Assembly: GCA_935421135.1 (NCBI GenBank)
Contig: OW285189.1
Location: forward strand, 22,198,298 to 22,262,297
Source: Bugulina stolonifera
Lineage: Eukaryota; Bryozoa; Gymnolaemata; Cheilostomatida; Bugulidae
Direction: 5' to 3'
Length of the DNA stretch: 64,000 nucleotides
Made by a program: the position numbers and the translations under genes. Below are positions 815-61,970 of this stretch, one piece after another (within the stretch, counting starts at the first letter, position 1; each line of letters begins with the position of its first letter). The notes under the pieces were generated by a model, which had not been told where the DNA came from, did no database searches, and worked only from the letters and a program-made list of their open reading frames with translations.

Positions 815-2260
815 TACGTTATTAATTATAACATCAATATGACATGAGATAATAAAGAAAATACATTATAATGAAAGGAAGGACACAGGCATGCATCCTT
901 TCTCCGCCCACAAAGAGGGTCCCTACCGTCTGCAAATTTACATTGTAGTTTGGTTGAAGAAACTCGCTATTTATTGGCTATTGAAAATATCAAATCAATG
1001 TCTGCTCTGCTATAGCCACATTCTATAACTGTGAAACTTTCTATTCGGGCAGAGTAGAGGAGTACCATAATGAGGCTTCTTATCTCTCCTTTGCTATCTT
1101 ATATCAAGACACAGACTAATTATGACTGCAAGGAATTTCAGGCTAGCGTCCTTCTCATCACCAAAACATGATGGGAAATCATATATAAGGCCGAAAATGT
1201 TACATTAATAGCACACACGTTTCAACTTTCATATTGCAAAGTTGAAGAGCTTGTTGATTTGCTTAGTGCACAAATACTTCAGTTTAGTATATCATGAAGT
1301 ATCTGTTAACTAAGGCACTCAATGAGTTCTATTTTTCGCTGTTTGGAAATCACATGGAAGTAGAGTAAGTAGAGTTATTGTACGCTGTAACTGGGTATAT
1401 CGAAATTATATGAGGCTATTGGCACAAGATCTGTGAAGCTGTATTTTGCGCCAATTGCATCATACAAGTTTGGTAGCAACAATTCAGCAGAAACGTCACA
1501 GCTTACTCAATTCTTCTCTTGGAGTTTGGATATAGGCAATGTTGGATTGCATAGTTTTTCTGAAGTGTGATAGTTGCTTTACACACGTCAGGATTACTAT
1601 GCCATTCATCATCGAGGCATAACACTACAGCTTTATTCAATTTCTGCTTTCACTGGATCTCAAAGAGGGAACTGAGAAACACGATGGAGACTAAGAGGAG
1701 TTCGACGTATATGTTGTATAATATTTCATGCATATATTTCAATGTTTAGCCGTTTTTAGGTAGCAAGGTAAATGTTGTGTTTGCTCTGTTATTTAATTTT
1801 ATGGACACTACTTCTTTTGTGAAGTTCACAGTGGACAGAATATATTTCCTAGCACATGATACAATGTTTACATGAGCCGGGTAATATGTTCATTCCAATA
1901 GTGTTACCTAAACTACCTTAACTAAGCCTCAAAGACCGGGTGTCGCTTGCAGAATGAGACTATATGGAGGAAATGTTTATTTGTTCATAATATGCACATG
2001 TATGTATGTAGGTATTTCTGCGGGGCTGTAATCTCTGTTTATTCCAGGTGAGCAGGCAAAGATTATATTTGTTTCTAGCAAAAACTCTGAGCTGCACTGA
2101 TGAGGTGTCAAACACCGAAACAGTTCGCTGTCTGCAGATTGAGTTTCGCTTTGTGAAATTTTCATAATAATTTTTGACATAACATTGTAAATTATTGAAT
2201 TTATATTTTAGCAACTACAATAACTTTGTAGCATCAAACAAACCATGTAAAACGCACACA
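815..2260 (+). repeat. Block H, copy A (ribozyme-bearing repeat)
   Basis: This block recurs at about 11.5-13.1 kb and 20.2-21.9 kb in the same orientation. Shared landmarks are a CAACTTT/AAAGTTG hairpin near 1225, the GTGTCGCTTGCAGAATGAGA segment near 1940, and the hammerhead near 2082-2146. The copies differ by many substitutions and small indels, so this is an old duplication. No long open frame is conserved between copies. It could be a non-coding transcription unit, a decayed non-autonomous retroelement, or simply part of a larger tandem repeat. Confidence 0.7.
2082..2146 (+). ncRNA. Type I hammerhead ribozyme, copy A
   Basis: All conserved core parts are present. Inner stem I is CTGCA (2092-2096) pairing with TGCAG (2133-2137), and an outer stem I, AAACTC with GAGTTT, is separated from it by an internal loop. 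The core CTGATGA is followed by stem II GGTGT/ACACC closed by CAA, then GAAA. Stem III is CAG/CTG closed by a UUCG tetraloop. The cleavage triplet is GTC, predicting self-cleavage after position 2132. Entry through stem I makes it type I. Such motifs are known in animal retroelements such as retrozymes and Penelope-like elements; which carrier applies here is unknown. Activity is inferred, not shown. Confidence 0.88.
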
Positions 2261-3539
2261 TTGTAAATTAAGTTTTGCTTTTATAAAATTTTTATATCAT
2301 TTCTTATACATGTTGTTACCACTCGTTATGTAAATATATACCAAAGAATATAATTTCATGTATCGTATTGAGAATAAAATCGGTATTATTATTTAAAAAA
2401 ACTATATTTTTACAATGTGTAATATTTGCTTCATCTAGAAACCATAAGCACACAATAATAATCAGTGTAGTGTACAAGAACAAACAGCATAATTTATTGT
2501 GAAAAAATGCTAAGATCTGCTTTTTCAGGCAACAGCATCACTTTCTATATTTACTAGAGTTCAAAGTTTGTGCTGCATATATGCTGCATGTGTCTTACGA
2601 TAATTGCAACAACATAAGCAAAATAAACAGTTGCACATGCATAAAAAAAATGTTTGAAGAAATAAAACAAACAAGCATGTATAAAAAACCCTGAATATGT
2701 TTTACAAGTATCAATATTAGTCAAAATTGGAATATTCGTACATTTATATATTTATAAATACATAGACAATGCATAGCTGTTTGCCTATTTTATACACACA
2801 TGCACATTTATTCATTCGCAAATAAAAGAATAGAATAGAAGTTTTCCTCTCTTTTCCCAAGAGCTAATTTGCACAATAGAGTTGTCCTCTCTCAACTAGA
2901 TTTTCTTTCAAAACATTCAGAGAAAACCAAACTGTGAGAGGATAACTTCTTGTTGTAATAATTAGCTTCTGAGTGTTCTAATGCATGGTTTAGGATATGG
3001 CTTGGTTACAAGATCTTCTCTTTCCAGAGAAGATGACCAGACAGGTGAACAGACAGTTGTCTGAAAAAGAACAATCGGCCTCTCATGTAGCCAACCCTTT
3101 TTTTACCTGGGAAAATAAGCTTTGCCGCTTTTTTGGAAAATTTTTTAAATATGGGTAGGAGAGGACAACTTCAGTTTATAATCACAAGCTTCTATGAGTG
3201 ATCATTAAAGCAATAATTACACACAGTGAGCAACACAAAATTTAAACCTGTACGTGTTGAATGATTGCTCTGACCACACTGTCACTAAAGTTACTTACAA
3301 CAGAGGAGGAACATTCTTTAGGTGAATAGTCCTGTTCTATGTGCTACATGGATACACTGCACAATTTAGTGGCAGAAATATTGTGTTAATCTGATAATTG
3401 TAGCAATAAAGTATACATTTTTTGTAATTCATCGAGGAGCATAGTAAATGCTTACCACTAGTCAATTTTAATCTGTTCCCACTCATAAATCTGGGTTGAC
3501 CCAAACAAAAAATGTGAACAAAGTTCAAGCTATACACAG
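2260..3539. other. Gene-free stretch with short palindromic repeats
   Basis: No gene is recognised. The stretch contains several inverted-repeat half-sites of the dispersed GAGTTRTCYTCTC / GAGARGAYAACTC family, at about 2881-2950 and 3010-3030, and a segment near 3078-3100 (GGCCTCTCATGTAGCC) that recurs near 33048. Confidence 0.45.
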
Positions 3540-3930
3540 TAATACCAAAGAGCGTAAAAGGAAAGAGGGATCACTCAATGATAATACCCTGTCTCACCAA
3601 ATACGCCCAGTTTGGCGGTACCGACGTTCCGCGATCAGCTTTCCCGCCATTTGCCTACTGATGTTTTGGATAGCTGATCGACTGTAATCGAAGCTTAACG
3701 ATTGTTATATTTGAGACCACGTATTGAAATCTTGTTAGTGGAAGTAGAGAGTTTATACGAGCTCGTTGTAAAGAAGCGCTTCTTATTGGTCCGCGGAACG
3801 CCAATCATAAGCGCGGGTTTGCACACAAGGTATGACAACTCCTTGCGTAACCCGTACCGCGTTCGGAGGCGGGAGGGAGACAGTTTTTGGCCGGAGTGAA
3901 ACCTCTTTCCTTTTACGCTCTTTGGTAATA
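3540..3930. mobile_element. MITE with near-perfect TIRs and GC-rich core
   Basis: The element is 3545-3925 (381 bp). Its ends CCAAAGAGCGTAAAAGGAAA are perfect inverted copies for 24 bp and imperfect for about 32 bp. Both sides carry TAATA, a likely target-site duplication; the exact TSD length is ambiguous because TIR and TSD letters overlap. The interior is much more GC-rich than its surroundings and holds a GCGCTT...AAGCGC palindrome around CCGCGG with CCAAT motifs in both orientations (about 3774-3812). No transposase is encoded, so it is a non-autonomous DNA transposon of uncertain superfamily. Confidence 0.8.
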
Positions 3931-5960: not shown

Positions 5961-7810
5961 TTGTGGTTTGTTATCATCATATCATTGCTTATACCCAAGT
6001 GGAAAGCTGCTACACAGCAGTACTACTTTGTAACAATAATGTTGAGAGGGCTTTATACTTGACATGGTTATGAATATCAACTCCACAAAACTGTTAGTGT
6101 AATTATGTCACAACAGTGGCATATGTTTACACTAGCTAGACTCACAGAGCCCAGGGAACCCCACCACAAAATAGCACTGCCATACAGTCATACATTGTAT
6201 TCACACAAAGACGAGTGTAGCATGTGCATTCGTTTACACTTTACAACCCAGTCTAACGATGGGTATACTTTTTGGTGCCTGGATAAAATGGTTCTAGTTG
6301 GAAAATCCCAACTATGCAAGCCTACATCCAACCAATCATGGAGCTATGTTTTGTACCCATATCAATGACAATATAACCTATATAATTACTGTTTAGATAT
6401 ATATTTTTATGGAATAAAGCTAGTCTAATACCAACATCTTGAAGCCAGATATTTAGCCAGCAGATAAGGCAAGAAAGGACAACTTCTTGCAGGATTCAGC
6501 ATACATGTAAACATACTAATTCTATGACGTACAGAAAACACTTGCTGTACAATGGCACTGAAATAGACACTCTGTAACATTTTATCTCATATCCAATACA
6601 CATGTACTTACATACAATGTGTATTATACATTATACATGTATATAGCAGTAGACTGCTGTCAGTGGATAGTAATGATAGCAGGCGCTCTAACAGAAATAC
6701 ACATGACCTCTACAATCTAATAGAAGACGACCAAATACAATTATTTGTGTTTTTACAAAGGCTGACTTTATATAATGGCAACACGTTTTGGTTTCAGTTG
6801 AACATACATGTTTATAGTTATAATAGTTGTGGAGACTCATTTTCACAAAGTGAATAGTTTTGTATATACAAGTAGTTATATCAATGAAGTAAACCCAACT
6901 GTGTTATATAATGTTTAGTGCTTTATTAGCTACATTAAAATTATATTAGATCTAAAGGCTAATTATATTCACACCAGGTCCAAATATAATGATTTGTGCC
7001 CCATTATGTTGACAATAAAATTTAAAGTTTGCTAATTAAAATTATGTGCAACAGGTGTCACACCATAAACTGCATACTTGCCAAGACTTTTAAATTTTGT
7101 CCCACTCTATTTCCTCCACACCTTTACTAAATTTATGATTTCTCACAAAAGGTTAAGTATTCAAATTAATCTAATTCCCAATGGGGGAAGGAAATGGTAT
7201 TTCATAGCCTCAGCTCCTAAGGAAGTTTATCAAAATCACTACATATGATGCAGGTGAGAGATATCTGTGGCTCTTGAAGAGTGAATGACAATAGAAAGCA
7301 CATTTCAATGACCAACCATATTTGTCAGCAGGCATCCATTTGATTTACTAGGACTAGCTGCCTATTGTAAGATAATTAGTATTGTGAAATGTACATGTAT
7401 TTATACATTGCATGTAAGACCAAGTGTGATAGGTTACAGGATGGAATTACTATTCCTATAGTATTGGATATACATGGGTATTTCCACTTCACATGACAAG
7501 AGAAACAATACTTTTATAGAATATTTACATGTACATGTCATTATTGACAGCATTAGTTCAATAAATGCACACATACAGTATAATTATGTTAAACATTTGT
7601 TGGCCATTCCTGTGTGCCACAATCCTGCCTGTTTGGAATAGCAGTAAATATATGAAAAACAGAATGAAAGCGTTTGACAAAGTAATATCAAATTGGATTT
7701 TTCAACTAAGATAATTGAAGAGCCAAAAAGGTGGACTACAACAAGAGTGCAGTGTAACCTCTATTGCATTGTAACAGTAGATAGCAGCTGAATTAATACT
7801 ATTACTGTAC
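5961..7810. other. Non-coding part of the segmental duplication
   Basis: Stretches near 6110-6380 and 6600-6690 reappear at 17820-18010 and 18180-18260 in the same order, so this belongs to the ~9-kb duplicated unit. The open frame 6105-6368 is disrupted in the 17.8-kb copy. No gene is recognised. Confidence 0.5.
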
Positions 7811-9310
7811 AGAATAAATACCCAATGTTGTGCATAAAAGGTTAAATTTTAGCTTTTGTAAAACTAGCATTTCTGAGCGACGATATCAGTTCTTTTGCTG
7901 ATCACTTTACGTAACGCCGACCTATCTGTCTAGACAACATAAGTCTAGACAGATATTATACTATAATTAATATAGAATAACGGAAAATAAATACAAGTTT
8001 AATGCATAAGAGTGTTGATACACACATGCCTTCACTACAATTCATTAAAATAATCTTTGAAATTTAAAGTGGTTTTAAGTGTGTGCATGTGTACAAAGAC
8101 ATGAATGTTGGTAGATAATTAAGTCTGCACGTATAAATTGATTTTACAACATATTACAATATTTTGCTACTTTGATGATCAGTTATGTTTTCATGCAATA
8201 ACAAGTTTAGCTTATAATTGTAACATGCAGGAAAGTAAAAGTATAATTATCTCGGTTTTGACAGATGTTAGGTTTCTAATGACGTTTGAAACTTTTAAAA
8301 GAAATAATTTAATATATTTATTATCTGTCTGTAGAGAAAGTCTGTTCAATTGATTATTTTGTAATGCCTTCATAGCAACAAAAGAAAATGGTTTGATGTG
8401 TGATGAATTTCCTTTGAATTCAAGCAGGCACACTGTATGTATTTCTTTGCCAACGCTATGCTAATTATAATAGCTGTAAGAGACCGCTGTTCAAAATGAT
8501 GCAACTTTATCTGCAAATATATTTCAACCAGTCGAAAATATTTATGTTCTAGATTTTCAATGCCTTGTTCAATGTTATATTTGACAGTATGTAGGCCATA
8601 AAATAATTATGTATAAGATCTGGTCTCCATTCCATAATGTACTACTAAATACTGCATGCTTATAGGTAACAGAGATATTGTAGGTTATGCTAATAACATA
8701 CATAATGCACATAATACGGTGAAAAAAATTTCCACAGCCGTCTTAATTTGATTTTCTAGAGAAAACTTAATTTTTGGATGTTGAATACTCTGACTTACAA
8801 TATAAATTCACACATACATCATCAGCCTGCAGAGTGTGTTGTAATTAGCTGCTGGAATCATAGCAACTTGACACAAATTTTTAAGATAAAACTTTACACT
8901 ACTGATGACTTAGTATGTTTCTCTTTGCCGATTGTCATTTTGAATTCAAGTTCAGTATTTCAGCAGTGTGTTTGTGAAATGAAACTGCATAATTTTAACA
9001 TTATATTATTGTTATGCTTGGTATGATATAGGGAACATATAGGATGGAACAGCAGGACCAACGAGGCAGACCGAGAGAGGTGTTTTGTGTCTACTGCATG
9101 CAGAGTTCAAGGATCAACTAATAAATGACTTGATTCTATTTAGTATTGAAAGCATTATAAGCCCTGCAATACTCAGTGCAATATACTATTGCTAAAGAAT
9201 ACAGTGTCTACACTTTGTGTTGGTACAAAAGAAAGGAAAACTCCAGGTCGCACACAAATAATTGTATTCACAAGTGAATCATGTAGGATGCATAGAATAT
9301 TACTGTAAAT
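7811..9310 (+). repeat. Block X, copy 1 (1.5-kb tandem repeat)
   Basis: It is about 1.5 kb, directly followed by a highly similar copy. It contains a perfect 13-bp hairpin, TATCTGTCTAGAC with GTCTAGACAGATA (7923-7955, 7-nt loop), which persists in altered form in the other copies. Short open frames such as 8138-8353 and 9635-9859 are conserved only because the two DNA copies are very alike; they have no family signature. Confidence 0.75.
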
Positions 9311-10805
9311 GACATGTACCCAATGTTGCGCATAAAAAATAAAATTTCAACTTTTGTAGTAAAACTAGCATTTCTGAGCGACGATATCAGTTCTTTTGCT
9401 GATGACTTCACTTTACGTAACGCCGACCTATCTGTCTAGACAACATAAGTCTAGACAAGTATTATACTATAATTAATATAGAATAACGGAAAATAAATAC
9501 AAGTTTAATGCATAAGAGTGTTGATACATGCGTGCCTTCACTATAACTCATTAAAATAATCTTTGAAATTTAAAGAGGTTTTAAGTGTGTGCATGTGTAC
9601 AAAGACATGAATGTTGGTAGATAAATAAGTCTGCATGTATAAATTGATTTTACAACATATTACAATATTTTGTTACTTTGATGATCAGTTATGTTTTCAT
9701 GCAATAACAAGTTTAGCTTATAATTGCAACATGCAGGGAAGTAAAAGTATAATTATCTCGGTTTTGACAGATGTTAGGTTTCTAAAGACGTTTGAAACTT
9801 TTAAAAGAAATAATTTAATATATTTATTATCTGTCTGTAGAGAAAGCCTGTGTAATTGATTATTTTGTAATGCCTTCATAGCAACAAAAGAAAATGGTTT
9901 GATGTGTGATGAATTTCCTTTGAATTCAGGCAGGCACACTGTATGTATTTCTTTGCCAACTTTATGCTAATTATAATAGCTATAAGAGACCGCTGTTCAA
10001 AATGAGGCTACTTTATCTGCAATTATATTTCAATTTGTCAAAAATATTTATGTTCTAGATTTTTGATGCCTTGTCCAATGTTATATTTGACAGCATGTAG
10101 GCCATAAAATAATTATGTATAAGATCTGGTCTCCATTGCATAATGTACTATTATACTGCATGCTTATAGGTAACAGAGATATGGTAGGTTATGCTAATAA
10201 CATACATAATGCACATAATGTAGTGAAAAAACACGTTTGTTCAGCCGTCTTACTTTAATTTTCCAGAGAAAACTTAATTTTTAGGTGCTGAATATCCTGA
10301 CTTACAATACAAATTCACACGCACATCATCAGCCTGCATTGTGTGTTGTAATTAGCTGCTGGAATCATAGCAACTTGACACAAATTTTTAAGATAAAAAT
10401 TTACACTACTGATGACTTAGTATGTTTCTCTTGGCTGATTTCATTTTGAATTCTAGTTCAGTATTTCAGCTGTATGTTTGTGAAATAACATTGCATTATT
10501 TTCGCATTATATTATTGTTATGTTTGGTATGATATAGGGACATATAGGATGGAACAGCAGGACCAACGATGCAGACTGAGAGAGGTGTCTTGTGTCTACT
10601 GCATGCAGAGTTCAAGGATCAACTAATAGATGACTTCATTCTATTTAGTATTGAAAGCATTATAGGCCTTGCAATACTCAGTGCAATATACTATTGCTAA
10701 AGAATGCAGTGTCTACACTTTGTGTTGGTACAAGAGAAAGGACAACTCCAGGTCAAACACAAATAATTTAATTCACAAGTGAATCATGTAGGATGCATGG
10801 AATAC
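9311..10805 (+). repeat. Block X, copy 2
   Basis: It is offset from copy 1 by about 1.5 kb with few substitutions and small indels, so this is a more recent duplication than the 9-kb one. More diverged copies lie at about 16407-17290 and 18646-19800, and partial copies at 24.8 kb and 36.3-36.7 kb. Confidence 0.75.
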
Positions 10806-11084
10806 TAGTTAGTTTTCATATAATTTGCTGGTACATTTTCTTTTAATGTCATTCTGTTCTCGTGTGCTCCAAAGGTGGATGTCTAAATTGCTGTCATACT
10901 TTGGTTGAAACAAAATCAACAACTCTGCATTTTATAACCACAAAATACATTTAGCCCAATTTAAGTCATAATCAAATTGCCTATTCAATAATTGCAGTAA
11001 ATGCAGCTGCAAAAATAAGTGCCTCTTGCTCTGGTACGTTTTTAGAATTTGTTCCTTTGCACTAAAAAGTTTGGTCTGGTCTAC

Positions 11085-13090
11085 AGGATGTAACCTGAAT
11101 CAGTTATACCAATATTTGCTGCTACACTGAGAGATTATTTTAGTTCCTAGCTGAGCATTCACCTCAGGTTTCCATATTATTGTAACAGTGAGCAAAAATA
11201 TTAACAAAGTTTAGTAAGTCTGTTTGTCAAATTATATTTAATTAGAAATGTGATTAAGGTCTAACAATATTAAAGTTTTGTAACACATGGGCTATTAGCC
11301 TAATCCTGAAGACACCTTTGGTCAACATTTCAATATACAATATAGATAGGGCAAATGGCAATCACTCCAATAACCAAGAAATAAACAGATGATATTTTGG
11401 AACCAAGCTGTATTATTATAATATGCGAATAAAACACATGGTTCAATGTAGATCATGCTACATGTTTCAAATTAATTTTTTTTTCTGATTATGTAGAATT
11501 TGGGCTTTTAGCCAGTCAGCCATAAAATAAATAATTATCCAATCACAGTTGTGTGATCTGTTCTTTCTCACAGCCTCAATATGCCATTAGACTATAAAGG
11601 AACAGTTAATGGCAAGAAAGGTATCCAATTTTATTTAGAAGAGTTTTTCCCGCTTGCAAACAAAGTTTCAGCTCGCCATGCCGTTGAAAACCTCTAATAG
11701 TTCTTCTTTTACAATTATTGTATATACGTAATAATATTATCTAACTGTGAAACAGTGTTTGTGGGCGGAGACGGAAGGACAAAGTACTATGCGGGACCTT
11801 ACTGTTACCTTCCCTTTATATTGATGAAAACTGCTTAGCACTGCAAGGAAATTCAGGCTAGCATCTTTCCTTCCCAGGATAGGAAATCATATATAAAGGA
11901 AGCAACTGTTACACTTGTAGCACACAGGCTTCAACTTTAAAACTGCAAAGTTGAAGAGTTTGTTGATGTCTTCAGTGCATGGGCACCTCAGTTTCGCACA
12001 TCATGAGCTACCTGTTAACTGAAGATATCAATGAGTTTTATTTTTCGCTGCTTAGAATTCACCCGAGACACAAGTAAGTAGAGTTAACTGGGCAGCACAC
12101 ACGTTTAAACTTTTACATTGCAAAGTTGAAAGGCTTGTTAACAAATTAGACTTTGAAAATTACTCAGTCTAATAACTCGTGAGTAATTTTCAAAATCAAG
12201 TAGTTAATGAGTTTACAAGCACCAGGAACATCAGCGAGCAGACAGAACAGCTAAGGAATTTGCACTTGGCTATGGGTGTGTAATCTGAGCAACTGAATTG
12301 CATGCCGTTAGTCAAGTACAAATTTGATAGCACTTTGCAGCTACTACTCTCAACTCGGCACTTTGGTTCTTCTTGCAGAGTTTGGATAAAGGCAATGGTG
12401 GAGTTGAGGGTCTTTGGGATGTATGATACAACATTTACATTCATTCCAAATACCCTTTACTCTAACATTAAGTCATAGCGCTACAACTCTATTCTATTTC
12501 TGCCTTCACTGAATCTCAAAAAACAATATGATTGAGAAAAAGTATATGATGGAGTTCGACGTATACGTTGTATAGTATTTCACGCATATCGTTTCAACGT
12601 TTTGCCGTTTGTAGGTAGCAAGCTAAATGTTGTATCTGCTCTGTTATTTAATTTTATGGACATTGTTTTCTTTGAAAAATTCACAGTGGACAGAATATAC
12701 TTCCTAGCACATGATACAATATTTACATGAGTGGGGTAGTATATTCTCTCCAATAGTGATGCCTAAACTACCTTAACTAAACCTCAAAGACCGGGTGTCG
12801 CTTGCAGAATGAGACTATATGGTGGAAAGGTTTATTTGTTCGTAAAATGTACAATGTACATGCATGTATTTCTGTGTGTGTGTTATTTCTATTCATTTCA
12901 GGTGAGGAGGCAAAGATTATATTTATTTCTAGGACAAACTCTGAGCTGCACTGATGAGATGTAATTAACGCCGAAACAGTTCGCTGTCTGCAGATTGAGT
13001 TTTGCTTTGTGAAATTTTAAATTTCAATTTTTGATATGCTGTAAACTATTGAATTCATGTTTTAGCAACTACAAATGTTGTAGCATCAAA
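11085..13090 (+). repeat. Block H, copy B (extended)
   Basis: Collinear with 19803-21920. The shared part begins GATGTAACCTGAATCAGTTA and runs through the AAAGTTG hairpin to the hammerhead. It lies immediately downstream of block X, the same order as in the second macro-unit. No coding exon is recognised. Confidence 0.7.
12936..13002 (+). ncRNA. Hammerhead ribozyme, copy B, stem II degraded
   Basis: Inner and outer stem I (CTGCA/TGCAG, AAACTC/GAGTTT), CTGATGA, GAAA, the UUCG-capped stem III and the GTC cleavage triplet (predicted cut after 12988) are intact. Stem II is changed: GATG opposes CGCC with one A-C mismatch and one G-T wobble, and the loop is longer. It is therefore probably weak or inactive. 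Loss of only stem II while the core survives suggests recent decay or tolerance of stem II variation. Confidence 0.65.
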
Positions 13091-13549
13091 TAAACAAAAG
13101 TTTTTTTAGTAAAATGCGAACATTGTAAATATTGTATTGTATGCTAAAGAGAATAAAGAATAATACATGAAAAGCTATCCAGTTGCAAATTTTTGTTGGC
13201 TCAAATAATTGCATAATATAATTGACATTTCATAATGGACATAAATGCACTAATAAAACTTGCCCACAATACATGCTGCATATAACATTGTGTGTAAATG
13301 AGCTATTACACACATAGTTTACTCCATGGGCATCATTACTTTGATGTTATTTGTGTCATAAACAAAACCCTCCAATATTCTGTGCAACGTACAATGTATA
13401 TGTGTGTCCTCAGCCTGCTGCCAAAATAACATACATATGTTTTCAAAAACTTTAGTTGCAAAAATACATGTAATTAAAACCAAAATGCACTAGAATTTGT
13501 AATTTATAAACAGACTGCAATGTTGTTTAATCAATACATTAGCCATCAC

Positions 13550-16406: not shown

Positions 16407-17290
16407 CATACCCAAAGCTGTGCATAAAAATTTACACCTCAACTTTTGCAAAACCTGAATAGTGAGATCAGAGCCCATACGAACCAGCTCTTTTGTCGAT
16501 AATTTTAATTCAGATGATGTCTAGCTACCTGTCTAGACATCATGTGTCTAGACGCGCACCATATTATAATTAATATAGAATAACGGAAAATGAATCCAAG
16601 TTTAATTAATAAAAGGGGAGAGGGAGAGATTTTTCTTTAGAAAAATGATCAAAGTTTATACCAGTTTTGATACATGTGCATTATGTATACGTGTACAAAC
16701 ATGAATGCTGTTAAACTAATAAGTCTACGTGTATAAATTAGTATTACAACATACTATTACATGTTGCTACCCCACAGATCAATATGCTTTACTGCAGCAA
16801 CAGTCTAGTTTATAATAAACAAGAAAGTAAAACTGTAATTAACTTGGTGTGGGCAGATGTTAGGCTTCTGAAGATGCTTTAAAATTTTAAAATAAGAAAT
16901 ATAACATCTATTATCTATCTGTAGACAAAGTTTGCTTAATTACATAATCTGAAGTGCTTTCATAGTGACAAAGGTAAATGATTAAAATTTTAATTAACTT
17001 CTTTTGAACCCAAGCAGACACGCTACATGTATAACTTTAGCCTACTCTGCGCTAATTATAATAACTATCAGTGAAATGCTGTGATGTTATTTTATTTGCA
17101 TGTATATATCAACCAGTCAAAAATATTATGCATGTTCTAGATTTTTAATGCTTTGTACATTGTTATATTCCATGAGCGATATAAAACTGGCTTGTACAGA
17201 ACCTAGTCTGCATTACCTAATAATACACTGATATACTGTTTAGGTAATGCAGGTTCAGCTAAAGTCTGCAAGTCAACTCGGTGAACAAAG
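16407..17290 (+). repeat. Block X, copy 3 (shortened)
   Basis: Diverged relative of 7811-9310 with the CTGTCTAGACATCATGTGTC hairpin near 16530. It ends early, where a second copy of the 16.25-kb segment (ATTCTATAAATACCGGTAAT) begins at about 17292. Confidence 0.6.
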
Positions 17291-17476: not shown

Positions 17477-18645
17477 TACCTGTGTCTAAGCCAACATGTT
17501 TATTTTGCCTAGGCCAGCATTGGCACTGAATAGTCTAATTATGTTATATCACTCTCGTTTTAGAAAACTAGATTAACTATGAAACTTCAGGAAACATCAG
17601 AAAACAGTAGATTCTGACATTCCTTGTGCTGATTATTCAGGAGTATAAACATTAGCAATAATATATGCATGTGCATATGTTTACTGTACATGTAAGGCAG
17701 TAGTTGTGGACTGCCAGTGCATTAGGCCTAAAACATCAAAATGCATTGTAGACTTTAACAGAAACGAAGAATCATACAAGTGAAACGGTTAAGAGGTTTT
17801 TCAACAGTCCATATATTTTCAAACAAGCTCCCTGATCCTAGGGAGTCCCCTACAGTCAAATGCATGTAGAGAAGAATGTGGCATGTGCATTTATTTATAC
17901 TTTACAACCCAGTTTGAGCATACTCTTTGGTACCTGGATAAAGTGGCTGTGGTTGGAAAATCCCAAGTATGCAAGCCTACATCTAGCCAATTAGGGAGCA
18001 ATGTTTTGTACCCATACCAGTACCAATAAAATCATATTGTCTATATAATTAGTAGTATTTAGGTATATTTCTATGGTTGAGAGTTAGTATAATACCAGTA
18101 TCTCAAGGTTAAATATTATTCATTAAAAGCCTAGTGTATAACATTTCTATCCTCTATATAATACACATTGTATGTACTTGCGTACCATGTGTATTATACA
18201 TGTATATAGCAGTAGACTGCCATCAGTGGATAATAATGATAGCAGGTGCACTAACATTGCCTCTACAATCTAATAGTAAACAGACAAATGCAATTATTTG
18301 CGTTTTGTATCAGGGTTGACTTTATATAATGGTAATATGTTTTGGTTCTCATTGATAATGAATAAACATCCCAATGTTCATACTTTTTATTTAATAAACA
18401 TGAATATAAAACTCATGAGTGAAAAAAAGGAATATGTTTATAAAATATAAACTACAAGGATTTGTGCTGTATCCTGTTAACCGCACATAACAATAATAAT
18501 TTAATTACTGAATTGGTCTTTAGAAAGAGCCACAAGTACATGTATGTAGCATAACAAGGGTGTTGTGTAGCCTACAACATTATATTACCAACACTCTGTT
18601 GGATAATAGCTGAATTAATTCTATTGCTGTAATAGGCAATAATAT
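17477..18645. other. Duplicated non-coding stretch
   Basis: Collinear with about 6110-7800 (landmarks GGAAAATCCCAAGTATGCAA and AGCAGTAGACTGCCATCAGT). No gene is recognised. Confidence 0.5.
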
Positions 18646-19800
18646 CCAAAGCTGTGCATAAAAATGTATACCTCAACTTTTGTAAAACGTGAATAGTGAG
18701 ATCAGGGCCAATAAGAACCAGCTCTCTTGTCGATAATTTTAATTCACATGATGTCTAACTACCTGTCTAGACATCGTGTGTCTAGACGCGCACCATATTA
18801 TAATTAATATAGAATAAAGGAAAATGAATCCAAGTTTAGTTAATAAAAGTGCAAAAGGAGAGATTTTTCCTTAGCAAAATGATTAAAGTTTATACCAGTT
18901 TTGACACATGCGCATTATGTATACGTGTACAAACATGAATGTTGTTAAATTAATAAGTCTACGTGTATAAATTAGTATTACAGCATACTAGTACATCTCG
19001 CTGCCCCACAGATCAATATGCTTTACTGCAGTAACAGTCTAGTTTATAATAAACAAGAAAGTAAAACTGTAATTAACTTGGTGTGGGCAGATGTTAGGCT
19101 TCTAAAGATGCTTTAAAATTTTAAAATAAGAAAATATAACATCCATTATCTATCTGTAGACAAAGTTTGTGTAATTACATAATCTGAAGTGCTTTCATAG
19201 TGACAAAAGTAAATGATTACAATTGAAATTAACTTCTTTTGAACCCAAGCAGACACGCTACATGTTTAACTTAGCCTACACTGCGCTAATTATAATAACT
19301 ATCAGTGAAACGCTGTGATGTTATTTTATTTGCAAGTACATGTATAATATGTTAACTAGTTTAAAATATGCATGTTCTAGTTTTTTGATGCGTTGTACAA
19401 TGTTATATTCTATGGACTGTATAAACTATAAAGTATGTATAAAACTTAGTCTACATTGCATAATAAAATACTGTTATACCGTGTTTAGGTGTTGTAGGCC
19501 CTGCTGATATACATGGCACATGCAATATGGTGAAAAATGTGTAAGAAAACCTTATACTTGAGGGGAGGGCTTTTGTCAGCTATGTTAATTTGATATTCCA
19601 GAGCTACACTGTTGTATGTTTATGAGATGGGGTTGTACTTTACTTTCATATTATATTGATATGCTTAGTATGATATTGGGACAAATTACATGTAGTAGAA
19701 GAAATTGCATTTAGTATTGAGAGTATTATACAATGTAAGCCCTGCCAAACTCAGTGTGAGATGCTATAGCTAAAGAATGCAGTATCTACAAAGTATAGCT
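18646..19800 (+). repeat. Block X, copy 4
   Basis: Closest to copy 3, sharing the CTGTCTAGACATCGTGTGTC hairpin near 18763. Directly followed by block H copy C, as X copy 2 precedes H copy B. Confidence 0.65.
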
Positions 19801-19802
19801 CT

Positions 19803-21920
19803 GATGTAACCTGAATCAGTTATACCAATATTTGCTGCTACACTGAGAGATTATTTTAGTTCCTAGCTGAGCATTCATGTCAGATTTCCATATTATTGTA
19901 ACAGTGAATAAAAGTTAACAGGGTTTAGTAAGTCTGTTTGCCAAATTATATTTAATTAACGATATGATTCAGGTCTAACGAACATGGACTATTAGCCTAA
20001 CCCTGAAGACACCTTTGCTCAACATTTTCATGTGAATGGGGTGAATAGTGATCGCTCTAGGTATGCAATAAATAAACAGATCATGCGTTAAAAGAAGGCT
20101 AAATAGAATTCAATTTTCTTATGTGTGGTTCAAAGTACATGTAGTTCATGTTACACTCTTCTAACCATGTAGAACTTTTACTCTTAGCCAGTAAGTCGTC
20201 AAATAAACAGCTATCCATCCACAGCTGTATGATTTGATCTTATTCATAACATCAACATAGCATGAGGCTATAAAGGAACAGATAATGGAAGAGAAGGTAT
20301 TCAACTTTATCTAGGAGACGTTTCTTCCCGCCCCCAACCAGATCCTAAGTTTGTCATGTAGTAGTGTTAAAGTACTGCTGATTGGCTGCTGAAAATCTCC
20401 AATTGCTGTCTTCTTTTATACAACAATATTATCTAGCTGTGAGGCAGCGCTTGTGGGTTGGGATGGAAGGACAAGGTACTATGGGGACCTTACTGTTACC
20501 TTCCCTTCACTATATTTTGAAATGGAATGCAAGGAACTTCAGGCTAACGTCTCTCTCATTACCAAAGAACGCTGGGGAATAATATTATATAAGTAATATC
20601 CATTCTTATACTGGTATCAAACGGGTTTCAACTTTCATATTGCAAAGTTGAAGAGCTTGTTGATTTGCTTAGTGCACAAATACTTCAGTTTAGTATATCA
20701 TGAAGTGTCTGTAAACTAAAGCACTCAATGAGTTTTATTTTTCGCCGCTTGGAAATCACATGGAACAAGAGTAAGTGGATTTAACTGGGTAGCACGCAGG
20801 TTTAAACTTTTACATTGCAAAGTTGAAAGGTTTGTTAATAAACTAGATTTTGAAAATTATTCGGTGTGATAATTTATGAGCGATTTTAAAAATTGAGTAG
20901 CTAATGCGTCTAAAACTTTTTCTATTCTACAAGCACCAGGAATACCAGACAGACAGAACAGCTAAAGAATTTGTTTTTGACTATGGGTATATAACCTGAG
21001 CAACTGAATTATATACCGTTAGTCAAAACCAAATTTGATAGCATTTTGCAGCTACTACTCTCAACTTGATTTGGCATAAATCTTCCTGCTGAGCTAGGAT
21101 AAAGTACTTTGAATTTTTGTAAAGCTAGTGCTACCAAACTTGAGTAACTGAATTTAGTAGAGCTAGCTTTATACAAATTTGATAGCAATTTTCCTGCATA
21201 ACTAACAAACTCGTAGCTTCTTGAGAAGTTTGGATAAAGGCAATGTTGAAGTTCAGGGCCTCTAGGATAAATGACTCAATATTTCCATGCATCTTAAATG
21301 CTCTGTACTTCAACATTAAGGCATAGAGCTTCAGCTTTATTCTATTTCTGGATTTACTGTATCTCAAAGATAAGATGAAACAATGTGATGGAAAGTGTGA
21401 AGAGTTCAACGTAGATGTAGGATATGTCTTTCAATATTTTGTAGTTATTATTCATTTTAGGTAGAAGGAAAAGTTGTTTGCTCTGTTATTTAATTTTACA
21501 GATACTTCTTCATAAAGTTCACAGTGGACAGAAAATGTTTCCTGGTATATGATGCAATATTTACATATACCGGGTAGCATCTTCTCTCCAATAATGTTAC
21601 CTAAACTACCTAAACTAAGCCTCAAAGACCGGTGTCGCTTGCAGAATGAGACTTTGGTGAACATGTTTATTTGTTCATAAGATGCACATGTGCATGTATC
21701 TATGCATATCTGTGTGTCTGTAATCTTTGTTTATTCCAGGTGAGAAGGCAAAGATTATATTTGTTTCTAGAGCATAACTCTGAGCTGCACTGATGAGGTG
21801 TCAAACACCGAAACAGTTCGCTGTCTGCAGATTGAGTTTTGCTTTATGAAATTTTCACAGTGTTTTTTGGCACTATATGAAAAATTTGAATTATATTTTT
21901 AGTAGTATCAAATAAACAGG
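19803..21920 (+). repeat. Block H, copy C (extended)
   Basis: Collinear with 11085-13090 and, for its second half, with 815-2260. Some segments (for example AGAGCTTGTTGATTTGCTTA near 20650) are closer to copy A than to copy B, so exchange between units is possible. Confidence 0.7.
21776..21838 (+). ncRNA. Type I hammerhead ribozyme, copy C
   Basis: Core, stem II GGTGT/ACACC, UUCG-capped stem III, inner stem I CTGCA/TGCAG and GTC are identical to copy A. The outer stem I is AACTC/GAGTT. Predicted self-cleavage is after 21825. The surrounding sequence is visibly more diverged than the ribozyme, which suggests selection or a recent common source. Confidence 0.88.
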
Positions 21921-26268: not shown

Positions 26269-29200
26269 CTGCAACAAAGGAATAGAGTATTACGTAGGTG
26301 TATAATACAGGTGATATGTACACTGTAGCTGTATAATACATGTGATATGTAGGTGTGTAACACATGTGATATGTATGTGTATAATAGATGTGATATGTAC
26401 GTATATAATACAGGTGATAATTATGTACTGTACGTGTATAATACAGGTGATATGTAGGTGTATAATACAGGTGATATGTAGGTGTATAATACATGTGATA
26501 TGTGGGTGAATAATACATGTGATATGTAGGTGAATAATAGATGTGATATGTAGGTGTATAATACATGTGATATGTAGGTGAATAATACATGTGATATGTA
26601 CGTATATAATACAGGTGATATGTACTGTACGTGTATAATACATGTGATATGTGGGTGAATAATACATGTGATATGTAGGTGAATAATAGATGTGATATGT
26701 AGGTGTATAATACATGTGATATGTAGGTGTATAATACATGTGATGTGTAGGTGTTAATACAGGTGATATGTAGGTGTTAATACAGGTGATATGCAGGTGT
26801 ATAAAACAGGTGATATGTAGGTGAATGATACATGTGATATGTAGGTGTATAATACAAGTGACATGTAGGTGTATAATACATGTGATATGTAGGTGTATAA
26901 TACACATGTACACATATGTACACAATACACATATACACATGTACATATACATATGTAGGTGTATAATACATGTGACATGTAGGTGTACAATACAAGTGAT
27001 ATGTACTGTACGTGTATAATACAGGTGATATGTACTGTACGTGTATAATACATGCGACCACTGAAGTTGTATACTTGATGTGATAACTGTCACAAAAGGT
27101 ACAATTCATTAAAAGTGAGTAAATGTTACACTCAGGTGAGGTGGGCTGAGTTGGAGAGGAATTAGTTGGGGGATGGCATAGGGTAATGAATACCCATAAG
27201 CTCATGATCATAGCGACAAGCTGCATACTTCCTAATAAGTATTCTCTATAATAGGGAGAGGATAACTTCCTATTTTGATCACAGGCTTGGGAGCGCCCAT
27301 TAGATTAACTTGAGTACACTGAAAGTCCTGACAGTTATTTTGTCTTGCACTACCTAATTCAGTTTCATGTGGTCATTTAGAATCACACAAACCTTGTAGG
27401 TGAAGGTAAAGTTAGCAAATTTACAGAATAATAAGCTATCTGAATAATAACCACAAATGCACACATTGCTTGTACATGGTCGTATAGCCTACATATGACT
27501 TACATAGTTGTATATAGGTGACATACATGGTTGTATATAGGTGACTTACATGGTTGTTTACAAGTGACTTAGATGGTTGTATATAGGTGACTTACATGGT
27601 TGTATATAGGTGACTTATATGGTTGTATATAGGTGACTTACATGGTTGTATATAGGTGACTTGCATGGTTGTATATAAGTGACTTACATAGTTGTATATA
27701 GATGACTTACATAGTTGTATATAGGTGACTTACATGGTTGTATATAGGCCTAGGTGACTTACATGGTTGTATATAGGTGACTTACATAGTTGTATATAGG
27801 TGACTTACATGGTTGTATATAGATGACTTACATGGTTGTATATAGGTGACTTACATAGTTGTATATAGGTGACTTACATGGTTGTTTACAAGTGACTTAC
27901 ATGGTTGTATATAGGTGACTTACATGGTTGTATATAGGTGACTTAGATGGTTGTATTAGGTGACTTACATGGTTGTATATAGGTGACTTAGATGGTTGCA
28001 TATAGGTGACTTACACGGTTGTATACAGGTGACTTATATGGTTGTATATAGGTGACTTACACAGTTGTATATAGGTGACTTACATGGTTGTATATAAGTG
28101 ACTTACATGGTTGTATATAGGTGACTTACATGGTTGTATATAGATGACTTACATAGTTGTATATAGGTGACTTACATGGTTGTATATAAGTGACTTACAT
28201 GGTTGTATATAGGTGACTTAGGCCTACATGGTTGTATATAGGTGACTTACATGGTTGTATATAGGCCTAGGTGACTTACATGGTTGTATATAGGTGACTT
28301 ACATGGTTGTATATAGGTGACTTACGTAGTTGTATATAGATGACTTACATAGTTGTATATAGATGACTTACATAGTTGTATATAGGTGACTTACATGGTT
28401 GTATATAGGTGACTTACATAGTTGTATATAGATGACTTACATGGTTGTATATAGGTGACTTACATGGTTGTATATAGGTGACTTACATAGTTGTATATAG
28501 ATGACTTACATGGTTGTATATAGGTGACTTACATGGTTGTTTACAAGTGACTTACATGGTTGTATATAGGTGACTTACATGGGTGTATATAGGTGACTTA
28601 CATGGTTGTATATAGATGACTTACATAGTTGTATATAGGTGACTTACATGGTTGTATATAAGTGACTTACATGGTTGTATATAGGTGACTTAGGCCTACA
28701 TGGTTGTATATAGGTGACTTACATGGTTGTATATAGGCCTAGGTGACTTACATGGTTGTATATAGGTGACTTACGTAGTTGTATATAGGTGACTTACATG
28801 GTTGTTTACAAGTGACTTACATGGTTGTATATAGGTGACTTACATGGTTGTATATAGGTGACTTACATGGTTGTATATAGGTGACTTACATGGTTGTATA
28901 TAGGTGACTTACACAGTTGTATATAGGTGACTTACATGGTTGTATATAGGTGACTTATATGGTTGTATATAGGTGACTTACACAGTTGTATATAGGTGAC
29001 TTAGATGGTTGCATATAGGTGACTTACATGGTTGTATACAGGTGACTTACATGGTAGTAACATAACTTTACAGCACTCGCCTACCAACAACCTGTGCACA
29101 TATTCACATAATACCAGAGTTGTCTTCTCAGCCTCCACAAAGAGAAGGAGATGACAACTACATACACTTAATGTTTGAATTGTTGGCCACAGTGTGGATA

Positions 29201-59036: not shown

Positions 59037-59528
59037 TTACATAAGATTACATTTGCCTTTATCATTTTCAGTTGTTTTTCTTGGAGACTTCTTCGGCGAG
59101 CTTTTAATCTTCTTCCGTTTCGATTTACTAGTTTTACCACCTAAACTCAACAACTGCCCTTTTTCAAGATGTAGCAGTTGTTCAAAGAGTTCCGTCGTAC
59201 GCAGCTGGTTCTTAGCTGATGTCTCTACGTATGAACATTGCCATTGTTTAGCTAAATTCTCACCTTCCGACTTGATGATCTCACGGTGAGACATGTCACA
59301 TTTGTTACCAACAACAATTAGAGGTGTTGAGTCTAGACTCTTCTTCAGTAGGAGTATTTCATTATAATAATATCGGAGACTATTGAACGATTGCCTATTA
59401 TTGACAGCATATACCAAGATGAAGGCGTGTCCTCGTTGTATTGCAAGTTTTACCATAGCAGGAAATGAGTGGCTCCCTCCTGTATCGGTGATATGTAGCG
59501 TAGATACTGCGCTGTCAGAGTTTATCAC
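59037..59528 (-). CDS. DIRAS: DIRAS exon 2
   Basis: Encodes from VINSDSAVSTLHITDTGGSH through the NKCD and SAK nucleotide-binding motifs to the prenylation box. The stop codon directly follows CNLM, so the C-terminus is complete. Confidence 0.93.
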   Translation of the reverse strand: MINSDSAVSTLHITDTGGSHSFPAMVKLAIQRGHAFILVYAVNNRQSFNSLRYYYNEILLLKKSLDSTPLIVVGNKCDMSHREIIKSEGENLAKQWQCSYVETSAKNQLRTTELFEQLLHLEKGQLLSLGGKTSKSKRKKIKSSPKKSPRKTTENDKGKCNLM

Positions 59529-61970
59529 CTGTAAAACAATAGCAAACATTAATAACACAGTAACAGTTGCACATGATGTAGTCTACTCAGCAACATACCA
59601 GGATAAGACGATTCCAAATGTTCTTTGTATTGCTACACAAACAGATATCAGAAAACCAGTGTCTCTCTGTCAGAACATTTACAGAGCTTAAGTATTGCTA
59701 TGATTTGGCACCACATGGACATAGTGCAGATAGTAGGATGTACTGCATGAACAAAGGATAGAATTTGAATACGCATGCATATTACTGGAACGACCAACAA
59801 AGAGCTAGTGTACACAATGAGTTGAATTTTACAAAAAAAAAACGGTTAAAGCTGAGAATCTTTGGGTCTAGACTGGCCAACACATGGTATCTTAGCTCAC
59901 ACTGGTACAGCGAGTTGCAACTGAAACTTTAACTCTTTGTAGAATTAAAAAGCCTTAGGTGTGCTGCCAACACCAGAGATGACTTGCTCTAATTTTAATA
60001 ATTGATATACACAAATCGATAAAGCAAATGTTAAATTGACTATTGAGCGTGCTAGCATCTCATTTAGAGAGTTGTTACCACCTGAACTCTAATGTATCGA
60101 TACACATTAGCCTACATGTGATTTTTATTTGTGACAGCTACATGTACAAGATTACCACTAGAATGAGTAGAGAAAGGTATTTAAATTTCCTCATTGTAGG
60201 AAAACTGGGTAAGGTATTTCACTCAACACTGAGAACATAACTCCTAATTGTTGTGTATGTTATCTGACAAGGAGAAAGGGAAATTTGAAAACATTTACTA
60301 AAGCTCTGAAAGTTCTCTATGAAATGATTGAAATGCACACAGCAGGTTTATCTCCACTCACTAATGATGAACATTGCTACCAACAGGTGCTACATCACAG
60401 CTCACCGTGAGCTTGAGAGAAACATACTACCGTCTACCGCTACACTTATACAAGTATTTAAAACCCAAGTAAAGTCACTAGTATGACCAGTTATTAGTTT
60501 ATGCAAAGCACTAGAAGTAGGAGTTGGAGGACTGTGCACTGCACACAACATGTTACTATATCCATTAGAGTTAATGATCCAATGCAGTCCACTTTATGTA
60601 GGATTGTATAACATTCCTACATAATTACATTCGCCAAATCTCCCTGGGCTAACTACAGGTCTAGGCTAGCGCTGGTGCATATTATACTACATGTAAATCT
60701 ATTGCTATACATTATACTAGATGCACACCCATCAAGTACTTGCAAGTTCACTTATAGTAGAAATTCATTTATATAAACCTCAAAGCTGATGAGCAGCCAC
60801 TTAATATATCACCTTGATTATCACTTAAAATTGATTTTGCACTGCACACTTATGCAATAAATAATAATAAGTATAGGAATAATACATACTGTATGTATTT
60901 CTGAACCCCAGCATCTCTACAGTTCTATAAACTATTGATAATTTGATTGGCCAAACTCAAATATCCTGGAATCTGTACTGATTTTTAGTCAACTCTATTG
61001 AACATTGAGCACAACATGACCTCATGGATTTATTTGCTAAAAATTCTGCAGGATACGTTAGAAATACAAAAAAACTCAGTTGACTTCCGTAAGAAATTGA
61101 GAACAACTTGCCATAAAGATGGTTAGCATTAGATACTGCAGTTCATATTATTAGCAAACTGGAGAAGTAGGGAGACAATTATTTTCCTAATGAGTCGAGT
61201 AAGGAAGCATTCAAGAAGCTACTGCTAGCATGCCAAGATGTATTAGTAGCATACAATGTAAGTGGTAGTACTGAGAACTGATATGGAAATTCTAACACTT
61301 GCTATGAATGGTAAGAGTGGATATACACTAATTCAAGGAATATATCTCATTATATATGCCATTAGTGCAACTTCAGCACATTATAAAACAAACACAATAT
61401 TGCCCACAGGGAAACAAACATACAATTTATATGTAATATATATAGTTGTATATAATACACATATCATGTACTCATATATACACATTATATATATTTAGCT
61501 CCCCAGTTAATAGGTGTATTATTAGTGTAAGAAAGAAGGTGTTGATTGCATAGAAGAGTTCAACTATCCAGTATACCACCACAGTATATTTATATAGTCT
61601 GTAGGCCTCAGTTTTAACCAAAATTAAATTTTAAAAACTTACTTGTTACGCCATCAAAAATATCAGAGCTTTCAAACTACTTGTCTAGCCAAAGATGATT
61701 CTAAAGGCAGTTCATGCCCAAACCACACTTTTCTGTTCTCCAAGTCTAACCATTAGACCTTGGACTATTCAACGCTAGCTAGGTATGCATTACTATAACT
61801 GCAGCACCTGTACTCACCTGCCTGTGTGTATCCTCCACTGTCGGTGTGTAGTGGTCCTTAAAGCTGTCACTGAGAAACCTTGTAACTATGGATGTCTTAC
61901 CAACAGCAGCGCTACCAAACACTACCACCCTGTACTCAGTACCATCCGTCTTACGATTTAAAGTCGGCAT
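59037..61970 (-). CDS. DIRAS: DIRAS-type Ras GTPase, two exons
   Basis: Membrane-associated small GTPase related to DIRAS1/2 (Rig/Di-Ras). Exon 1 is 61818-61970 (51 codons), exon 2 is 59037-59528 (163 codons and TAA); donor GTGAGT, acceptor TTTTACAG, phase 0. Total 214 residues, slightly longer than the ~199 of vertebrate DIRAS because of a Lys/Ser-rich tail. P-loop GSAAVGKT (19-26), switch I YTPTVEDTHRQ (41-51), G3 DTGGSHSFPAM (66-76), NKCD (126-129), ETSAK (153-157), basic region KSKRKKIKSSPKKSPRK (186-202), CaaX CNLM (211-214) predicting farnesylation. The TDTGGSHSFPAM segment matches the DIRAS family (DTTGSHxFPAM) rather than Ras, Rap or Rheb. Upstream neighbour unknown; UCKL1 lies downstream on the same strand. 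Confidence 0.93.
59529..61817. other. DIRAS intron
   Basis: 2.29 kb. Two plus-strand stretches look weakly coding (about 60155-60240 with MSRERYLNFLIVGKLGK, and about 60298-60390 and 61165-61260 with short open frames), possibly transposon relics. None has a clear family match. Confidence 0.4.
61818..61970 (-). CDS. DIRAS: DIRAS exon 1
   Basis: ATG at 61968-61970, then MPTLNRKTDGTEYRVVVFGS and the P-loop and switch I. The intron falls right after switch I. A TATA-like TATAAATATATATT lies about 50 bp upstream. Confidence 0.93.

Follow-up and report, generated by a model that had tools for sequence, protein, structure and literature searches.

A type I hammerhead ribozyme in a bryozoan tandem array is very probably a truncated remnant of a small non-LTR retrozyme

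Introduction

Vertebrates carry conserved single hammerhead ribozymes, such as the intronic HH9 and HH10 and a mammalian 3'-UTR hammerhead, and hammerhead cleavage needs helix II. A different setting is provided by the metazoan non-LTR retrozymes, which the accessible part of the account by Cervera and de la Pena (2020, PMC7229834) describes as low-GC repeats of 170-400 nt that form tandem multimers of a self-paired unit, with target duplications that exceed the 4 bp seen in plant retrozymes. LINEs or Penelope-like elements are named in the same text as candidate movers of animal retrozymes, the latter as a strong candidate. For Penelope-like element RNA, the available description (PMC11167929) is one of reverse transcription that initiates internally, at two adjacent fixed sites. 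No account of hammerhead ribozymes in bryozoans was found in the freely available literature searched, where papers that mention both ribozymes and bryozoans deal, judging by title and opening of the abstract, with mitochondrial introns and unrelated topics.

Here we describe a hammerhead motif, copy A, in a stretch of 64,000 nucleotides on chromosome 3 of the cheilostome bryozoan Bugulina stolonifera (G000:C3:22198298-22262297; hereafter the window, to which plain position numbers refer), together with its sister copies and the dispersed repeat family from which it very probably derives.

Results

A complete type I hammerhead in copy A

The outer helix of stem I in copy A pairs AACTC (2083-2087) with GAGTT (2141-2145), and a 4/3 internal loop, TGAG (2088-2091) facing ATT (2138-2140), separates it from the inner helix formed by CTGCA (2092-2096) and TGCAG (2133-2137). 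The core segments CTGATGA (2097-2103) and GAA (2117-2119) enclose a helix II of 5 bp (GGTGT 2104-2108, loop CAA, ACACC 2112-2116), and helix III consists of 4 bp (ACAG 2120-2123 with CTGT 2128-2131) closed by a TTCG loop. C17 is located at 2132, which places the predicted cut between 2132 and 2133. The type I core CUGAnGA / GAA / A15.1-U16.1 / H17 is fully present in copy A and in a second copy in the window, copy C (Table 1). A strict descriptor, requiring the core, at least 4 bp in helix II, at least 3 bp in helix III, 4 bp in inner stem I and H17, with G-U pairs allowed, has just two matches in the 64-kb window, at 2097 (A) and 21790 (C), and 0 matches on both strands of 60 first-order Markov simulations of the window. 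Copy A looks like a genuine self-cleaving RNA motif. The original prediction had listed for it the core nucleotides, three helices and a GTC cleavage site, which direct reading and the descriptor confirm, an internal loop between two helices of stem I, which is the TGAG/ATT loop, and a cut between 2132 and 2133, with which the core geometry agrees.

Table 1 Features of the hammerhead array and of a second hammerhead lineage (window positions unless a contig or locus is given)
Feature	Position	Strand	Basis or remark
Hammerhead ribozyme copy A, type I, complete core	2083..2145	+	direct reading and strict descriptor match
Copy A, predicted self-cleavage site, after C17 of GUC	2132..2133	+	core geometry, inferred from sequence
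Copy A, helix II and loop II (GGTGT CAA ACACC)	2104..2116	+	four-copy alignment
Copy A, segment homologous to the 3' end of the 249-nt retrozyme, very probably a 5'-truncated insertion	2083..2144	+	blastn to dispersed loci
Copy B	12937..13001	+	core present; helix II A.C mismatch, U.G wobble, 2-nt loop insertion
Copy C, complete core, same sequence as A across the hammerhead	21776..21838	+	
Duplicated block around copy A	1511..2268	+	79-82% to B and C in blastn pieces
Duplicated block around copy B	12367..13130	+	
Duplicated block around copy C	21217..21899	+	
Second conserved island in the duplicated block, without ribozyme	1898..1973	+	63-column windows
Second-lineage hammerhead L084	L084:1488-1552, G000:C2:24743396	-	
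Second-lineage hammerhead L088	G000:C3:19237780-19238030		
Second-lineage hammerhead L089	G000:C3:19255400-19255650		

A dispersed family with a 249-nt unit

With copy A as query, a search of the genome (234,951,659 bases in 27 contigs) returned 647 candidates, the 40 scored being scattered across the chromosomes, and a family pattern, which copies A-C fit as well, has 349 matches in the genome compared with 0 for the reversed control. The sample examined comprised 57 loci, i.e., 27 of the 37 places outside the window from the copy A query and the first 30 of the 349 pattern matches, all 30 on contig C1; when loci with common junctions were merged, 48 distinct insertions were obtained.

The repeat that carries the hammerhead motif at its 3' end has a unit of 249 nt and occurs as fragments, monomers and multimers up to tetramers. 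Among the 57 loci, the 249-nt spacing is present in every one that has at least two strict motifs, up to 4 units, and many other loci have a single motif. The 3' end of the family is fixed: 46 of the 48 insertions end within unit positions 248 to 4, one at 5 and one at 26, and positions 1 and 2 account for 17 each, with the reservation that insertion ends from blastn may overrun by a few chance bases. The 5' starts are variable and spread over positions 1-249 of the unit, and insertion lengths range from 65 to 997 nt, with examples of 65, 73 and 79 nt that are about the size of the window remnant. Target-site duplications of at least 9 bp flank 19 of the 48 insertions and are absent at that length from the other 29; mispairing these flanks 200 times gave 2.6 on average and at most 7. 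The targets are TA-rich, as judged by eye.

The unit has a GC content of 43%, and one copy folded as a circle reaches -82.3 kcal/mol (z -5.7 against shuffles), the hammerhead part of the predicted circle adopting a competing fold. As features of metazoan non-LTR retrozymes we used tandem repeats of 150-450 bp that each contain a type I hammerhead, GC below about 45%, and, where target-site duplications are present, a length of more than 4 bp; the dispersed family agrees in repeat size and tandem arrangement, in GC and self-pairing, and in target duplication. In anatomy it matches the metazoan non-LTR retrozymes, with insertion by target-primed reverse transcription.

Among the places that fit one of the motif patterns, C17 is found at eight, which are the four copies of the array described below and four old, diverged retrozymes that are 75-93% identical to a modern unit, in pieces. 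The TTCG loop is present in no dispersed copy fitting the patterns, and the immediate parent subfamily of the array copies has for this reason not been found.

A pattern with a different helix III spacing, which misses copies A-C, brought up a second, diverged hammerhead lineage characterized by helix II GCCG..CGGC and inner stem I CCGCA/TGCGG (Table 1). The hammerhead of L084 sits between 75-nt inverted arms (97%), and L089 has lost helix III.

With respect to a mobilizing enzyme, the GIY-YIG domain (PF01541) was found at only one place in the genome; a canonical Penelope helper is therefore not evident.

Four copies in tandem on chromosome 3

Copy A belongs to a tandem array with the order D, A, B, C, copy D lying ~7.6 kb to the left of the window. 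Blocks A, B and C are 77-82% identical in blastn pieces, and the 482 bp upstream of copy A were found at the four array places only, in a search that skips simple repeats and very common words. Copy B (12951) fails the strict descriptor, by eye due to the helix II A.C mismatch, and is probably a weak ribozyme, and copy D has lost A9 and helix II.

The homology of copies A-D to the retrozyme comprises the last ~60-70 nt only, a single blastn piece extending to 85 nt with 86% identity, and in the window it stops at ..GATTGAGT, which is where the retrozyme family has its fixed 3' end. The original prediction, which had recognized no carrier element, does not hold in this respect, as the motif is the 3'-terminal part of a retrozyme family whose motif is present in hundreds of copies. 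Copy A lacks the full tandem monomer by which membership in the retrozymes was judged, and because the homology is so short and the copies lie 8.8-10.9 kb apart in sequence that is unlike the retrozyme, we regard copy A as a remnant and not as an element. No target-site duplication is visible by eye around the array copies; since these show no duplication, and the 29 dispersed insertions mentioned above none of at least 9 bp, we infer the array insertion from homology and end position. The simplest history of the array is one old truncated insertion followed by tandem duplication.

The tandem units and the wider window

The original prediction had placed copy A in non-coding DNA, and the surrounding duplicated units indeed give no clear sign of coding: there is no clear synonymous excess in the tandem units (the highest share with at least 10 changes is 7/17, read without a formal null), and none of 10 ORFs from these units has a Pfam match. 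Positions 2049-2100 were considered as a C-terminal exon with its stop codon in the hammerhead core, and this candidate was rejected since the frame, by eye, is not preserved in all copies. The tRNA search found none.

Several other features were recorded. The tandem units contain a further repeat family (window 7800-10807, 16408-17253 and 18642-19498), 89-93% identical between neighbours and ~68-70% between units, with no Pfam match in the ORFs tried. To the right of copy A, a MITE-like element with terminal inverted repeats occupies window 3541-3929 (~389 bp, 38-nt arms); it has 621 candidates in the genome, and the 40 scored are 88-100% identical over nearly the full length. A tandem array of a 23-bp unit (TGACTTACATGGTTGTATATAGG) with ~67 copies is found at window 27496-29059. 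Among 10 ORFs of the wider window, the only one above the cut-off encodes a fragment of a Ras-family GTPase (window 59040-59582, minus strand, Pfam E 5e-28). Outside the window, COX1 on contig C27, translated with the invertebrate code, has Bugula neritina as its best match (90% identity), which indicates a bryozoan and not a sponge. The assembly contains additional COX1 pieces at G000:C26:34375-36051 and G000:C12:7199-8926 that are very unlike this bryozoan COX1; the C26 piece has a large insertion and, by eye, NAD1 alongside, and by eye it resembles protist (ciliate-like) sequence, which suggests mitochondrial DNA of a cobiont in the assembly.

Rfam scores, folding and covariation

No match at gathering threshold was obtained in the Rfam search of the window, and over the whole window no hammerhead was listed even at E up to 5. 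The best score for copy A, seen only in a search of 151 bases, was with RF02275 Hammerhead_HH9 (27.1 bits, E 3.7e-5, gathering 52). When part of a retrozyme locus was searched, its family member, which is young and intact, reached 18.3 bits against a gathering threshold of 48.5, and the remaining matches in the window, the stretch and the retrozyme locus are mostly low-complexity miRNA noise. An Rfam hit above threshold had been proposed as the check on copy A, and its sub-gathering score formally counts against the original prediction; however, the shortfall decides little because the young intact relative also lies far below gathering. A genome search with Hammerhead_1 (RF00163), in which 73 of 23,763 candidates were scored, gave no match, and there was none in 14 control genomes either; the null result says little, since in the same genome the family pattern has 349 matches and the reversed pattern 0.

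In plain folding, copy A is no stabler than its shuffles (z -0.70). A competing fold without helix III is assigned -17.2 kcal/mol as compared with -16.5 kcal/mol for the hammerhead fold, and the exact hammerhead fold makes up ~2% of the ensemble, in a secondary-structure program that ignores loop-loop contacts. For covariation, 11 motifs (10 distinct) were aligned, copies with a broken helix II (D, L072, L073 and L078) being left out; 92% of the cells are paired, against 25-45% when the alignment is slid. Three base pairs show double-sided changes, a number reached by 1 of 500 shuffles, but a slide of +2 also gives 3. Because all three come from one sequence, L084, which belongs to a distant hammerhead lineage, they represent one lineage and not three independent events. 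The covariation modestly supports three helices with an open-ended stem I.

Conservation of the insert

Over 64 nt, copies A and C do not differ, whereas their block is 76.8% identical overall and the flanks 72.9%; the most diverged pair among the array copies is B-C. The segment 2104-2117 comprises helix II with its loop and a single core G; outside it, 48 of 49 insert columns are invariant in the four copies as compared with 257/441 in the flanks (Fisher p 1e-9), the sole exception being A9 of the core, which is changed in D. With 2104-2117 included, the insert is weakly more conserved than the flanks (57/77 invariant, p 0.011). By eye, the conservation spills into both flanks, about 2045-2165, and the conserved insert adjoins a CAG|G acceptor-like site, with AATAAA-like sites downstream. 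Off the insert, the best 63-column windows reach 95% in A-C (1898-1960) and 97% in A-B (1911-1973), and define a second island without a ribozyme.

Such strong conservation outside helix II is not predicted by a simple fossil. Nevertheless, copy A is probably a fossil in a partly conserved non-coding block, parts of which are unusually unchanged; this is favoured over a selected ribozyme because helix II is damaged in B and lost in D, because the conservation extends beyond the ribozyme, and because there is no clear coding signature.

Discussion

With high probability, copy A derives from a small, non-autonomous non-LTR retrozyme, of which it is an old 5'-truncated remnant of about 60-70 nt, or the 3'-terminal quarter; the remnant was later copied in tandem with its surroundings. 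In the living element, tandem units would be transcribed, and the transcripts would cut themselves at each hammerhead and would then be circularised. A helper enzyme would reverse-transcribe the circles, priming on nicked AT-rich DNA, with synthesis beginning at nearly one spot just 3' of stem I, and a variable stop would yield fixed 3' ends, ragged 5' ends, 249-nt multimers and, often, target duplications of ~9-15 bp. One truncated insertion would have landed in a unit on chromosome 3, which was later duplicated in tandem to give D, A, B and C. Copies A and C, in which the ribozyme is complete, would be expected to cut any plus-strand transcript that crosses them, presumably without a function for the host, while B would be weakened and the core of D lost.

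The conservation pattern suggests two alternatives in which part of the array is under selection. It is possible, and rather unlikely, that a conserved DNA or RNA element unrelated to cleavage overlaps stems I and III and leaves helix II free to vary. Apart from A9 in D, the variation of the insert among copies A-D is indeed confined to helix II and its loop, and the island at 1898-1973 demonstrates conservation in the block that needs no ribozyme; however, no analysis here named such an element, and helix II, being a quasi-palindrome, may mutate faster, in line with its breakage in three of the four old C17 retrozymes, which were selected by a pattern that fixes the 3' half.

Exaptation of the ribozyme itself is quite improbable. 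Here, the truncated insertion would have become part of an unannotated RNA, within an exon or 3' region that is transcribed and conserved, and a self-cleaving switch kept by selection in A and C would regulate that non-coding transcript. The identity of A and C in spite of their diverged flanks, the near-invariance outside 2104-2117, and the conserved flanks beside acceptor-like and AATAAA-like sites are what such a history would leave, but gene conversion between A and C could yield the same identity. Moreover, helix II, on which activity depends, is damaged in B and destroyed in D, where A9 is changed too, the insert taken as a whole is weakly more conserved, and neither a clear coding signal nor a Pfam domain in the ORFs tried accompanies it.

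A chance look-alike without ribozyme ancestry, to which the lack of an Rfam family at gathering and the 0.7 kcal/mol advantage of a non-hammerhead fold might point, is hardly credible in view of the empty simulated windows, the 349 family matches against 0 in the genome and the double-sided changes in three base pairs, all in L084.

The remnant of a non-LTR retrozyme thus remains the preferred reading of copy A, and it directs attention to a young family with readable insertion junctions in one genome. A fixed start beside stem I, truncated monomers, multimers and target duplications are what is expected of target-primed copying of a circle, and with a single GIY-YIG domain detected, the genome allows a test of the Penelope-helper idea. 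In the four-copy array, intact and damaged ribozymes, two of each, share matched surroundings; if exaptation were true, B and D, the naturally damaged siblings, would allow live ribozymes to be compared with dead ones at sister loci.

Compared with the single vertebrate hammerheads as far as they are covered in the accessible text of PMC7761336, copy A is similarly isolated and outside a tandem repeat, and its best Rfam model is HH9; unlike them, it has no host gene identified here, and helix II is lost or weakened in two of the four copies. The available description of Penelope-like elements (PMC11167929) resembles the present family in fixed internal ends, AT-rich targets and a hammerhead nearby, and the concentration of 3' ends at two neighbouring positions, with blastn overrun possible, is reminiscent of the two adjacent start sites reported there. 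The metazoan non-LTR retrozymes, as presented in the accessible part of PMC7229834, differ in host, which here is a bryozoan, and in that account there is no mention of truncation, whereas the present family has a sharply fixed 3' end and frequent monomer and sub-monomer copies truncated at the 5' end; copy A differs further as a single ~65-nt remnant without a repeat array of its own. Both have a type I hammerhead whose helix III is short but real, and they agree in the size and low GC of the repeat, its self-paired unit, its tandem multimers and its target duplications.
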